Part shown: piece after piece, positions 905 to 17,500 of the stretch
How the letters are laid out: every line of letters starts with the position of its first letter
Numbering within the stretch: position 1 is the first letter of the stretch
Virus record (IMG/VR): IMGVR_UViG_3300046747_000089
Location: 1 to 26,738 of that record
DNA length: 26,738 nucleotides
DNA from: a virus
Direction: 5' to 3' (one strand)
Notes under the pieces: model-generated
Databases searched by the model: none
Told to the model about the DNA's origin: nothing
Seen by the model: the letters and a program-made list of their open reading frames with translations, nothing else
Translations under genes and position numbers: made by a program

Positions 905-1110
905 GTCGTCGCAAGCACGTCGAGGAAGTCTCCGAGCCCACCAAGGACCCGTTCTCGGCGGTCAGCGTCGAGGAGTGCATGGCGATATGGGTTGAGGCCG
1001 AGCGGACCTACCAGCAACTCGCCGATGCGTTCAAGGCCGCAGAGGAGACGCGCACGCTGGCGTTCAACCGGATGCGGAACGTGGCACTGGGCCGGAAGGA
1101 GTTGGCGTAA
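886..1110 (+). CDS. Small helical hypothetical protein
   Basis: About 74 residues if started at ATG 886. A TTG at 901 that forms a TTGA overlap with the upstream stop would give 69 residues, and that overlap style is common in this genome. The protein is mostly charged and helical, with 'EECMAIWVEAERTYQQLADA' followed by more Ala/Glu/Arg-rich helix. It has no membrane segment or motif that I know. Its stop codon overlaps the first base of the replication-protein start. A short DNA-binding or structural helper is possible, but no function is assigned. Confidence 0.5.
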   Translation: MRDEALSRRKHVEEVSEPTKDPFSAVSVEECMAIWVEAERTYQQLADAFKAAEETRTLAFNRMRNVALGRKELA

Positions 1111-2024
1111 TGGCGATGTCGTGGTGCAAGGTGTCGAGCACACTCGACAGTCATCCCAAGATTAGGAAGGCTGGCCGGCTAGGGCGCGAGGTGTTCCTGT
1201 TCGCGTTACGTCGTAACGCTCATCCCGAGAACCCGGTGCCCGGCATCCTGCCTGCCGATGTGCTCGACCCGTGGTTCATCGCGGACCAACTCATGATGAC
1301 CGAAGAGGAGGCCGTTACGGGCGTTACGTTATGCGTTACGGTCGGTTTGTTACTAAAAAACGGGCACTGTTTCGAGATAAGTGGATGGTCGGAAGATTGG
1401 GGTAAACGGGAAACAGTTAATGCTGAACGCCAAGCCCGTTATCGCGCAAGACTGCGTAATGATGGAGAACAGGGTAATCCCGTTACGGTTGAAAACGTAA
1501 CGCGTTACAACGTTACAGTAGATCAGAGGAGATTAGAGGAGAAGAGAAGAGAAGAGATAACTAAGAATTCCGCTACGCCTAATTCGGCTAGCGGACTTTC
1601 CCCTGAATTGTTTTCCCCTGAACTGGAAAAGCCGAAAGTCAGGCAGGGCAGGCCCAAGAAGCCAAAGCCAAGCGAGCCGACACCGGCCGAAGCAGAGGCA
1701 GCACGAACCGTTCTCGAGAAGCTCACGGCGAGAAACGGCGTTCGCTACTCGTCGCCAGAGCACACCAAGCTCGTCGTGAATCAGCTGCGAGCCGGGGTGT
1801 CCGAGCTCGAACTACGCGCGGTGATTGCTTACTGCGCCGTCGAGTTGTTCGACGAGCCTGAGATGCAAAAATACCTGAGGCCACAGACGCTGTTCGGCCC
1901 CAAGACCATCACGAAGTACCTCGACCCGGCGCGAACATGGGCACAGAAGGAATATCCACAGGAATTCACAGTACATAGCGAGCCACTTACCGAACCGTTG
2001 TGGATGTCAGGAGGAGCGCAATGA
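1110..2024 (+). CDS. Replisome-organiser-like replication protein
   Basis: This 304-residue protein looks like a phage replication initiator or helicase-loading organiser. The N-terminal ~110 residues (MSWCKVSSTLDSHPKI... to ...ISGWSEDWGKRETVNAERQA) have the pattern of phage replisome-organiser N-terminal domains, including an Arg-rich run 'RQARYRARLR'. A charged, low-complexity linker follows (VDQRRLEEKRREEI, then Pro/Lys-rich). Residues ~190-283 match the pattern of the conserved phage C-terminal domain (Phg_2220_C type), with 'YLRPQTLFGPKTITKYLDPA'. The gene carries a dense set of CGTTACG repeats and a purine tract, as in lambda gene O, where the origin sits inside the initiator gene. Base composition dips in GC over the repeats compared with flanking genes. 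The next gene overlaps by ATGA and is probably coupled. Confidence 0.72.
   Translation: MAMSWCKVSSTLDSHPKIRKAGRLGREVFLFALRRNAHPENPVPGILPADVLDPWFIADQLMMTEEEAVTGVTLCVTVGLLLKNGHCFEISGWSEDWGKRETVNAERQARYRARLRNDGEQGNPVTVENVTRYNVTVDQRRLEEKRREEITKNSATPNSASGLSPELFSPELEKPKVRQGRPKKPKPSEPTPAEAEAARTVLEKLTARNGVRYSSPEHTKLVVNQLRAGVSELELRAVIAYCAVELFDEPEMQKYLRPQTLFGPKTITKYLDPARTWAQKEYPQEFTVHSEPLTEPLWMSGGAQ
1204..1218. repeat. Perfect 7-bp inverted repeat (CGTTACG-T-CGTAACG)
   Basis: Two iteron units face each other around one T. This is the first unit of the repeat cluster and lies about 95 bp before the next group. It could be an operator or binding site for a dimeric initiator; the arms are too short and tightly joined for a stable hairpin terminator. 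Confidence 0.6.
1204..1517. repeat. Iteron-like CGTTACG repeat cluster, candidate origin
   Basis: Exact CGTTACG copies lie at 1204, 1313, 1322, 1334 and 1481. The reverse complement CGTAACG lies at 1212 and 1496, and CGTTACA copies at 1503 and 1511. Weaker matches are at 1348 (TGTTACT) and 1437 (CGTTATC). The hexamer is read in three codon frames (Val-Thr, Arg-Tyr and Ala-Leu-Arg), so it is not simply a repeated peptide. The copies group into 1204-1218, 1313-1354 and 1481-1517, with spacings of roughly 7-15 bp inside groups. A purine-rich tract follows directly. Position inside a replication gene suggests initiator-binding iterons; this is inference. Confidence 0.6.
1521..1560. other. Purine-rich tract, possible DNA-unwinding element
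   Basis: The + strand here is almost all A and G (AGATCAGAGGAGATTAGAGG and on through repeated AGAAG units), just downstream of the last repeat. In lambda, an A+T-rich, strand-asymmetric element lies beside the O-binding iterons and is where the duplex melts. The same arrangement here suggests an unwinding element, though the tract also codes for the charged linker DQRRLEEKRREEI. Confidence 0.45.
2009..2014 (+). promoter_or_regulatory. Strong ribosome binding site AGGAGG
   Basis: A consensus Shine-Dalgarno sequence sits six bases before the ATG at 2021. It favours that ATG over the upstream in-frame GTG at 2000. Confidence 0.75.
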
Positions 2025-2841: not shown

Positions 2842-3300
2842 TTGCATACTGGGATTGCCGAGTCGGACGAGCCGACGCTGCTGATACGGGGACCAAGGCC
2901 CACGGATAAGGGCTTTGTGTGCTCGACGCTGGTCAAGTCGCTGTTCTGGGCGGACCGCAGTAAGCCCAAGCGGGCCTGGGCGCGCCTCGTCGATGACATG
3001 CTCGACCATCCGCTGTGTGCGCTGCACCTGGCCTGCGATGGCGATGCGCCCGATAGGCTGTTCGGGTTCTGCATCAGCTTTCGCATTCCGGTCGTGCGCG
3101 CGCTCGGCTACGTGTACGTGTCCAAGGGCCAGCGCAAGCATGGCTATGCACGCCAGCTCGTGACTAAGGCGCTTCCGGGGGCCAAGCCGCTCGTGTACTG
3201 TCTGCGAGGACCCGATGCGAGTGACCTACTCCAGCGCTACCGAGATGCGGTGTTCGTTCCGTTCGAGAAGCTGCTCGATTTGCACGTGACCAGCCACTAG
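2842..3300 (+). CDS. GNAT-like acetyltransferase-fold protein
   Basis: The frame starts best at TTG 2842, 16 bases after the small-terminase stop; no ATG is available and the next usable start is GTG 2917. Of 152 residues, the central part 'GYVYVSKGQRKHGYARQLV' (about 89-107) resembles GNAT motif A: a beta strand, a V-x-x-x-x-R/Q-x-x-G-x-A turn that holds acetyl-CoA pyrophosphate, then a helix. GNAT-fold proteins occur in podovirus structural operons (for example T7 gp13). The substrate is unknown, and it may be a virion or assembly factor rather than an active enzyme. The frame stays open upstream of the TTG, so the N-terminus is uncertain. Confidence 0.6.
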   Translation: MHTGIAESDEPTLLIRGPRPTDKGFVCSTLVKSLFWADRSKPKRAWARLVDDMLDHPLCALHLACDGDAPDRLFGFCISFRIPVVRALGYVYVSKGQRKHGYARQLVTKALPGAKPLVYCLRGPDASDLLQRYRDAVFVPFEKLLDLHVTSH

Positions 3301-3307
3301 GAGATTC

Positions 3308-3835
3308 ATGCTGAACCACCAACCTCGCGATTCCTGGATTCTGCTCAAGCCGCTCGAGTCCCCTCGCATGACCGGCACGGCCGGCCTCATGGTGCCCGAG
3401 AAGGCGCACGACAACTTGCCGTATGCCTATGGCCGCGTCGAGTCCGTGGGTCCGGGTCGAGTGCTCAAGGACGGCACGCGCGCCAAGACCGGGCTCAAGA
3501 CGGGCGACATCGTGACCTACGCCAAGTCGCAGGTGGCGGCGCTGTTGCCGCTCGACCCGGATGACTTCTACGCCATCGACAAGACGCGCGTCATGGTCAA
3601 CGCGGATTACATCCTGACCGTGGTCCAGGGCTATCAGGAGCCGAGCCTGGTGCTCTCCATCGACGGCAAGCCGCTGCCACGTGACCCGCAGAGCCGGGGC
3701 AACGTGGACCTGTCGGACTACGTCATCAAGAACAAGGAAGACGCCGAGGTGTCTCGGTTCTACAACGTGCCGGGCATGGCCGAGTACGTCGACGAGCATC
3801 CACCGGGTGAAGCGGCCGACGAGGTGAGCAAGTGA
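3308..3835 (+). CDS. GroES-like co-chaperonin with C-terminal extension
   Basis: Residues ~8-107 of 175 follow the GroES pattern. The first strand is 'WILLKPLESP' and the mobile loop lies at about 18-33. The loop contains 'AGLMVPEKA', matching the G-[IL]-x-[VL]-P element that contacts GroEL. Then come 'GRVESVGPGRV', 'LKTGDIVTY' and the last strand 'MVNADYILTV'. Known phage co-chaperonins (T4 gp31) cap host GroEL so that the capsid protein can fold. The extra ~68 C-terminal residues (acidic, ending near 'EHPPGEAADEVSK') are not part of canonical GroES. The start is ATG 3308 with 'AGGAGATTC' just upstream. The gene lies in the packaging cluster, which fits a capsid-folding role. The next gene overlaps in GTGA. 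Confidence 0.75.
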   Translation: MLNHQPRDSWILLKPLESPRMTGTAGLMVPEKAHDNLPYAYGRVESVGPGRVLKDGTRAKTGLKTGDIVTYAKSQVAALLPLDPDDFYAIDKTRVMVNADYILTVVQGYQEPSLVLSIDGKPLPRDPQSRGNVDLSDYVIKNKEDAEVSRFYNVPGMAEYVDEHPPGEAADEVSK

Positions 3836-14516: not shown

Positions 14517-17500
14517 GTGGCCTTGCAGAAGCAGCCGTTCCGCATCCAGTTCGCCGGGGGTGTCGACACCAAGACCAACCCCAAGGGCGTGATTCCGGCC
14601 AAGCTGACGGCGCTAGAAAACGCCACGTTCGTCAAGAACACGTCACTCGCCAAGCGTAACGGCTACCGCGCGCTCAGTAAGCGCATCGGCGACGGCTCGT
14701 CGGAGTACACGGGCGCCGTGGGGCTGACGGCTCGCGACGACGAACTCATCCTGTGCAACGTCGACCGCGCCTACAGCTACCGTCCGACGGCTGACCGCTG
14801 GCACGACACGGGCGAAGTGTGCTCGGTGGTCGCGACCGATATCGCGTTCGCACGCTCGGGCACACAGCAGCGCATGCCGGACCACGCGACCAACAGCGGC
14901 ATCACGGTCGGCGCCTGGGAAGACTCGCGCGGCGGTGTCTATGCGGCAGTGCAGGACGCGGACAGCGGCCACATCCTCGTCGAGCAGCAGGTGGACCCGA
15001 ACGGGTTCATGCCTCGCGTTATCGCGTGCGGGACCGTCTTGCTGCTGTTCTGGCTAAACTCGACCGACACGTACATCTGGTGTGCGGTCATCAACCCCAG
15101 CAACCCGACGGACACCATCACAGGAACCATCCTGGCCGATGACCGGTTCGATTCCTATGACGTCTGTACAGCGGGCGGCAACGTCTACGCATCCAACCCC
15201 GGTCTACTCGCCTACGGCTCGACCTCTGGCGGGATTCGCGTGGCCTATGTCCATCAGTCTGGCGTCATCGGCTCCCCGCTGACGGGTCTGCCATCGGCGT
15301 ACAACTGGACGCTCACCAACACGGCTGGTTCAGGCGGCGCGACGCTGGTCGGCCCCATCGCGGTGACGTTCGACAAGGTCAACCATACCGCGATCGCGGT
15401 GACGTGGGGGACCGTGCTCATCAACACGCTGTTTTTGACCTATACGGACCTGACCTCGAAGCTCTACGGCGGCACGGTCTACGCTGGGGCCAGCCAATTC
15501 AAGCGCGTGTGTGCCGAGTTCGATGCTTCGAGCCAACTCTGGTACGCAGGAGAACTCGCGCACGATAGCCACGTCGACCACAACCAAACGGTGTGTGGGG
15601 CCGTCAACACGTCGGGCACGGCCATCGCGACGCCGACCACGCGCAGGCTGCACGGCCATGGCATTGCATCGCGGGCGTTCTACGACGCCGGCAAGGTCTA
15701 CTGCGCGGTCGTTCATCCGGTCATCTTCTTTCCCTACGTTGCCATCGTGCGCATGTCGTCGGCCGAGTTCGGCGGCGCGTACACGATGACCGCGAGTCGA
15801 CTGCTGCCTGGGGTCACCGCGGGACTATCGAGTCGTGACTACAGCCTGCCGGCCGTGCAGCCCGTGGACCCAGACGCGTCGTTCTTGTCGCGGCAGCACT
15901 CGCTTGCGCTGGGCTACCGCATCCAGCTCTCGAGCACGAATGGCGACCAGTTCTCCGAGGAGGGCATCAAGATTACCACCCTCGATTTCCTCCACGACTC
16001 GGCCTACAGCTTCGTGCAGCTCGGGGCGGGGTTGTACCTGGCGGGGTCGCTGCTGGCGCATTACGACGGGATGAGGTGGGCCGAAAGCGATTTCCACTGC
16101 GCACCGGACTTCGCGACCTCGACACCGGGAACCGACCTCATGACCTCGAGTGCTGGGGGCGGGTCGATGTCCGGCAGCAAGACCTATGGCTATCGCTTTT
16201 GTTACGAGGAGGTCGACGCGCAGGGTGAAGTCCACTCGGGCGCGATGAGTCAACTCTACAACATCGTGATGGGCGCCAGTGACAACACCGTCACGCTGAC
16301 GATTCCGACCTACCGGCTCACGATGAAGAACAACGTGCGCATCTCGGTATTCCGGTCCGCGGGCAACGCCACGGGGACCGTCGAGACCATCGAGTTCTTT
16401 CGGGTCACCGACACGGACCCGAGCGTGCTGGTGGGTGCGAACTGCTACCTGCCCAACGACCCGACGGTGGACGCGGTCACGTTCGTGGATGAGCTAGCCG
16501 ATGCGGGCCTGACCACGCGCGAGCCGGCCTACACCAACGGCGGCATTCTCTCCAACGACCCTATCGCCATCTCGGGCTCGGTCGTTGCGGGCGGCAAGTA
16601 CCGCATCTTCTACACGCACCCATCCGACCCCGACCTCGTCTACTTTTCCAAGTCACTCAAGGACGACACGGCCGCGGAGTTTTCACCGGCGCTGTTCGTG
16701 CGCTGTGACCCGTACGGCGGCGCCGTCGTCGGCATCGGCGTGCAGGACGAGACCATCATGCCGTTCAAGGAGCACGCTATCTACGCCTTTGGCGGGCCGG
16801 GCCCTGATGACGATGGTGGCCTGCTGAACCCCAACGACCAGTTCTCGAATCCCGAGCTCGTGACCAGCGACGTGGGCTGCCTGACGCCTAACAGCATCGC
16901 GCAGAGCCCACAGGGGCTCGTGTTTCAGACCGACAAGGGTATCCCCGGGCTCATCGACCGTAGCCGCCAAATCCAGATGATTGGCAACGACGTCTACGGC
17001 TACAAGGACCAGACGTTACAGCGTGCCACGCTGCTACCCGGGCGGCACCAGATTCTGTTCCTGACCGATACCGCCGATGGGATGTCGCTTTTGTGGGACT
17101 ACGAGCGTGGCCAGTGGGGGCCGTACTCCAACCATGTGGGCGTCGATGCCATCGTGGTCGCTGGGACGTACTACTACCTTCGCGACGACGGCCGGGTGTT
17201 CGCCGAGACGCCGGGCGTATACGCCGACGACACCAGCCACGTGAAGATGCGCATCACGACGGCGTGGCTGACGATGACCGGCTACAACCAAGGTTGGCAG
17301 AAGATTCTCCGCGCGAACTTCCTCGGGGATTGGAAGTCCGACCACGTGCTCCGGGTCTACTTCGCGCTCGACTACGAGGAACAGTGGGTGGGGCCGTTCG
17401 ACCTGGACGTGAACAGCGACTACAACCCGGACCTGTACGGCGCCGGGCTCTATGGGGCTGATGGCTACAGCTACACGCCGGGCACGAACAGCACGCTGTA

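Follow-up and report, generated by a model that had tools for sequence, protein, structure and literature searches.

Repeats of the heptanucleotide CGTTACG (iterons) and a purine tract downstream of them mark the gene for a phage replication initiator. Cluster and tract very probably form the replication origin of the phage, situated within the coding sequence of its initiator (probability about 0.86). This reading as an intragenic iteron-type origin is well supported, at the level of sequence, by codon choice, the density of the motif in relatives, conservation at synonymous positions and a strict polarity. The DNA analyzed, hereafter the window, is a viral record of 26,738 bases, linear and probably a fragment. 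A previous sequence-only reading had recognized the iterons and the strand-asymmetric tract, and both stand; the hairpin downstream and the wide spread of the layout had been missed.

Exact copies of the motif were found on the plus strand at 1204, 1313, 1322, 1334 and 1481, and on the minus strand at 1212 and 1496; together with two CGTTACA units (1503 and 1511, read directly from the sequence) these seven copies span positions 1204–1517, inside the gene (Table 1). The re-count bore out all the motif coordinates of the sequence-only reading. Just two more copies lie in the window (12232, 14655). The nine exact copies observed compare with 2.5 expected and with a maximum of 6 among 100 shuffles. 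When every 7-mer was scanned along the window, CGTTACG ranked on top with 7 copies per 300 bp, the next unrelated 7-mers reaching 5. The motif does not recur at equal density elsewhere in the window, and repeats far denser in the initiator gene than outside are what an intragenic iteron-type origin should feature.

Table 1. Elements of the initiator gene and of the putative origin within it (window coordinates).
Feature	Position	Strand	Basis
Initiator / replisome-organizer-like gene, 304 aa (P0001)	1110–2024	+	PHROG 428 replication initiation, 7e-10; Phg_2220_C
Winged-helix-type N-domain and basic helix, aa 1–118	1110–1463	+	hhalign to initiator N-domain family A7
Inverted pair CGTTACG-T-CGTAACG, iterons 1 and 2	1204–1218	both	fold z -2.4
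Three direct CGTTACG iterons (1313, 1322, 1334)	1313–1340	+	motif search
Tract-proximal iterons CGTTACG 1481, CGTAACG 1496, CGTTACA 1503, CGTTACA 1511	1481–1517	both	
Purine tract with AGAAG repeats; presumed unwinding / loader-binding element	1521–1560	+	35/40 purines
Hairpin; core stem TCCGCTA 1569–1575 / TAGCGGA 1589–1595	1566–1598	.	DNA fold -9.2 kcal/mol, z -3.5
Phg_2220_C C-terminal domain, aa 202–271	1713–1922	+	Pfam PF09524, E 1e-8

The purine tract had also been rightly called. Its purine content was reached by none of 5000 resamples drawn at the codon usage of the window, and by 139 of 5000 when the codons of the gene itself were shuffled, so that taken alone this evidence is weaker. 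Arg residues in the tract are all encoded by AGA or AGG (4/4), while AGR codons make up 8.4% in the rest of the window. The tract provides the asymmetric or easily opened element expected next to the repeats of an intragenic iteron-type origin, and its polarity in relatives is 56:0 (see below). The hairpin past the tract is added here, and the conserved order of iterons, tract and hairpin is established. A 14-nt unit, TTTCCCCTGAAYTG, is present in two tandem copies at 1597–1625, immediately past the hairpin.

The identity of the gene as replisome-organizer-like, proposed from the sequence alone, is established by the matches to PHROG 428, to Phg_2220_C (35 bits, cutoff 27 in Pfam) and, for residues 1–118, to N-domain family A7 (hhalign probability 96.5, E 1e-9), a family of phage initiators assembled in the present analysis. 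The Pfam and PHROG matches fall in the C-terminal half of the protein. The AlphaFold model features a confident helical N-domain (pLDDT about 76–96 over residues 11–120) with a pair of wing-like strands, and a linker that is loose. A fold search of the PDB gave nothing below E 1e-3, solved winged-helix proteins matching weakly; in a viral structure library P0001 resembles replisome organizers, with weak to moderate matches, and Lin1244/DUF1376 proteins. P0001 thus combines the winged-helix N-domain and the DnaD-like or Phg_2220_C C-domain of phage replisome organizers and DnaD-like initiators, and its N-domain is presumed to be the iteron-binding part.

GC content across 1–2.5 kb (0.56–0.58) is the minimum of the window. 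The GC-skew minimum falls at 17075, away from the iteron cluster, and says little on origin position because the record is a linear 26.7-kb fragment. No match to the DnaA box TTWTNCACA was found in the window, which does not conform to a DnaA/oriC-type origin. Scans of neighboring ORFs against Pfam and PHROGs recognized no helicase or loader gene in this fragment. A tRNA-Asn (GTT) gene is located at 2378–2450, shortly downstream of the replication region, and genes for a GNAT-type acetyltransferase (2842–3300) and a GroES-like co-chaperonin (3308–3835) are nearby.

Relatives of the initiator were selected by protein, with back-translated, codon-neutral patterns, and 42 non-redundant genes were retained. 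One of the two patterns contains Val-Thr, a bias toward the peptide and not toward its codons, and the query alignment was built from motif-selected loci. Three or more motifs are present in 36 of the 42 genes. In the gene sequences (36.5 kb) CGTWACG was counted 239 times (6.5/kb), against 19 copies in the 171 kb that flank them (0.11/kb), a difference of about 59-fold; CGTTACA is enriched 10-fold in the family genes. In 15 whole records (38.9–62.7 kb), 95 of 144 copies are located within one 700-bp zone. The spacing of successive copies peaks at 12 bp, and 5, 7, 10, 11 and 24 bp are also common. Synonymous conservation, a check suggested by the sequence-only reading, was found: in the motif columns CGT accounts for 38/39 and 35/37 of the Arg codons, and AAC for 36/37 and 34/34 of the Asn codons. 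Arg columns elsewhere mostly vary strongly (about 2 bits); three Arg columns of low entropy lie outside the motif mask. This conservation is seen in distant relatives only, because protein scans of viral and genome contigs gave no close relatives of P0001. A tblastn search of named phages with only the N-terminal region gave no match.

Viral contigs were also scanned by DNA alone for three closely successive CGTTACG motifs, and at least 120 loci were found. Among the matches listed, the longest ORFs over the clusters repeatedly correspond to replication families, namely replication initiation phrog_9474 (27/103), DnaD-like loader phrog_10469 (19/103) and replisome organizer phrog_4880 (9/103), counts which overlap and come from a set including the window itself. 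CGTTACG is common to several different N-terminal families. By eye, non-blind, 58 of 120 listed loci were judged initiator-like, making 59 genes with the window. In 59% of these a tract of tandem repeats, 3–6 nt in period (mostly 5 or 6), exceeds the 95th percentile of local controls, and in 27% an inverted repeat with a stem score of at least 7 follows the tract (8% in controls). Many of the hairpins past the tract have a CCTACGG-type loop (loci L021, L043, L065, L078; also the L029 sequence).

Polarity is independent of such curation, as the test looks for two iterons followed by a purine or a pyrimidine tract. The arrangement with the purine tract was found in 56 viral contigs, many of them near-duplicates, and falls in all 56 within an ORF on the same strand; the arrangement with a pyrimidine tract was found at no locus in viral contigs. 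The polarity is therefore established. The purine tract is read in the three frames at 33, 14 and 9 of the 56 loci. The same motif-plus-tract scan of genome contigs returned no loci, a result which is at odds with matches in viral contigs that seemingly come from isolate genomes, and which is given no weight here.

Scans with other words were compared by the identity of the matches, not by raw counts. The reversed motif GCATTGC had been chosen as a negative control, but it landed, among the matches listed, in initiators of another family, and for this reason is not a clean control. The third motif, GCTTAGC, hit mostly low-complexity proteins and one more group of initiators among the matches listed. 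GCAATGC repeats, read as NANAMRTHSEGNA, form a second iteron class in phage initiators with DUF1376 and Lin1244_N domains (loci L129–L248), and GCTAAGC repeats, read as SAKQTEASAKQNQASAKQ and followed by a DKIREEE tract, are found in another initiator group (L255, L263, L292 and others). Named phages also carry words of their own: GCGGACA in epsilon15, SPN1S and phiPSA1, GCGTTAC in TL-2011b and a Rac-like phage, CGTTACC in the Xanthomonas phages CP2 and Olaya, and CGTWACG in Bradyrhizobium phage ppBjS10J-1 (4 copies). CGTTACG is therefore one case of a general layout, and, as the two words meant as controls revealed, repeats within the gene are widespread among phage initiators. Genes next to the initiator in named relatives encode, among others, a DnaC-like loader or a DnaB helicase. 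GC skew in epsilon15 and ppBjS10J-1 has no clear coincidence with the iteron region. The assignment of GCGTTAC to ydaU of the E. coli K-12 Rac prophage was wrong, as this gene has a different repeat; ydaU (L432:4620-5477) contains repeats of the TGTTCAAACA type together with a GATACAGATAAAGAT tract and a hairpin formed by a C-run and a G-run. The Rac prophage contains an active origin, oriJ (PMC3945230).

Repeats in a coding region may merely mirror a repeated peptide, here Val-Thr motifs and EERREE within a linker of low complexity. Val-Thr is indeed encoded by five of the seven exact copies, in four as GTT ACG and in the fifth as GTA ACG, though the motif is found in three codon frames, as stated in the sequence-only reading. 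Codon choice speaks against the peptide: all six Val-Thr pairs of the initiator gene use iteron-type codons (GTTACG in four, GTAACG and GTTACA in one each), whereas none of the 44 pairs in other genes of the window does (Fisher probability about 6e-8, by our own arithmetic), and the constraint therefore acts on the DNA. Resampling of synonymous codons under an unchanged protein sequence gave seven motif copies in none of 5000 trials. Spacings of 5, 7, 10 and 11 bp in the family shift the reading frame, and what is repeated is therefore not a peptide; the occurrence of the tract in all three frames among relatives, and the conservation of codons at Arg, Asn and Thr columns, argue in the same direction. 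The constraint at DNA level is established, and the repeated-peptide explanation, already strongly disfavored, has next to no probability.

By analogy with lambda, binding of the protein to the iterons, unwinding, helicase loading and the start of replication would all take place at this site. The winged-helix N-domain would bind the CGTTACG iterons, phased in the family mostly 12 bp apart, and the initiator might oligomerize on them and open the neighboring strand-asymmetric tract. For the loading step, the strand-specific single-stranded element in oriC recognized by DnaD (PMC10201434) offers a possible parallel. Once exposed, the tract, bounded by the hairpin, may set strand and direction of helicase loading, which could proceed via the C-terminal part of the initiator, a separate loader, or both.

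The cluster might otherwise be an autoregulatory operator, or a partition or condensation site, for the initiator or another phage protein. Iterons can serve in autoregulation or incompatibility, and the groups at 1204–1340 sit 180–320 bp upstream of the purine tract, both of which suit such a role; the location within a coding region and not at a promoter, and the polar tract and hairpin which come after the cluster in relatives, make it unlikely. Less probable still is that the iterons are sites of a host protein, an initiation or nucleoid factor which many hosts have in common, the phage protein being only a loader. The sharing of CGTTACG by several N-terminal families would fit a host factor, but other initiator families have other iterons (GCAATGC, GCTAAGC, GCGGACA), which suggests that the site follows the initiator, and the lack of DnaA boxes in the window also speaks against it. 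An origin recognized by the phage initiator is the reading preferred here.

CGTTACG iterons, a polar tandem tract of 5- or 6-nt units and a hairpin may represent an undescribed class of origins, spread across many phage initiator families each pairing with its own iteron word; we give this proposal even odds. A search of open-access papers for CGTTACG together with iteron found nothing relevant. If the proposal is true, initiator genes could by themselves suffice to reveal both the origin and the specificity of the initiator. To our knowledge, very few phages have mapped origins. The same layout is found in dozens of other phages, and origins could be predicted from sequence: the rule of an iteron word in the initiator gene, a purine-type tract and a hairpin would yield testable predictions for uncultured as for cultured phages, and would tie initiator families to recognition words. 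The low-complexity peptides of many annotated replication proteins, such as NVT, EERREEKRREE and DTDTDTD, would be explained as by-products of DNA elements.

Several known systems can be compared. For mycobacteriophages with RepA-like initiators it has been suggested that, as in lambda, repA itself may contain the origin, and no repeated motifs were reported in the examined regions between tail genes and parS-L (PMC7157519); two related phage genes examined here have only weak 7-mer repeats. The initiators of epsilon15, SPN1S, phiPSA1, TL-2011b, CP2 and Olaya are homologous to the MAGDW-type relatives and have intragenic repeated 7-mers, and all but TL-2011b share a GAAGAG tract; they differ in the iteron, which is GCGGACA, GCGTTAC or CGTTACC and not CGTTACG. 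No origin mapping for these six phages was found in the open-access literature. DnaD and DnaD-like loaders are alike in that relatives of P0001 match such loaders and a strand-specific element lies beside initiator sites (PMC10201434). DnaD needs at least two TnnT elements in its single-stranded element at oriC (PMC10201434), and the complement of the purine tract, its T-rich strand, holds spacings of this kind. DnaD, however, acts with DnaA boxes and DnaA-trios at oriC (PMC10201434), whereas the window has no DnaA box.

The nearest parallel in layout is lambda, in which O binds iterons inside gene O and an adjacent AT-rich tract opens; lambda and Stx phage origins likewise have iterons and an adjacent melting element placed centrally within the initiator gene (PMC7466680), and by position the elements in the window do the same. 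The description of the cluster as a lambda-like origin in a replication gene therefore stands for the intragenic logic of iterons and asymmetric element, and fails for the protein family and the repeats. P0001 has no match to an O-type initiator (Phage_rep_O or an O-like PHROG) in Pfam or PHROGs. Lambda has four 19-bp imperfect-palindrome iterons (PMC7466680), and no such row of four was found in the window, where a 7-bp core is arranged in irregular groups in both orientations. In place of the AT-rich tract and the O initiator of lambda, the window has a purine tract with a hairpin after it and an initiator outside the O family. As P0001 is not a homologue of O and the iteron is not that of lambda, the putative origin would work like ori-lambda, without being a member of that group.
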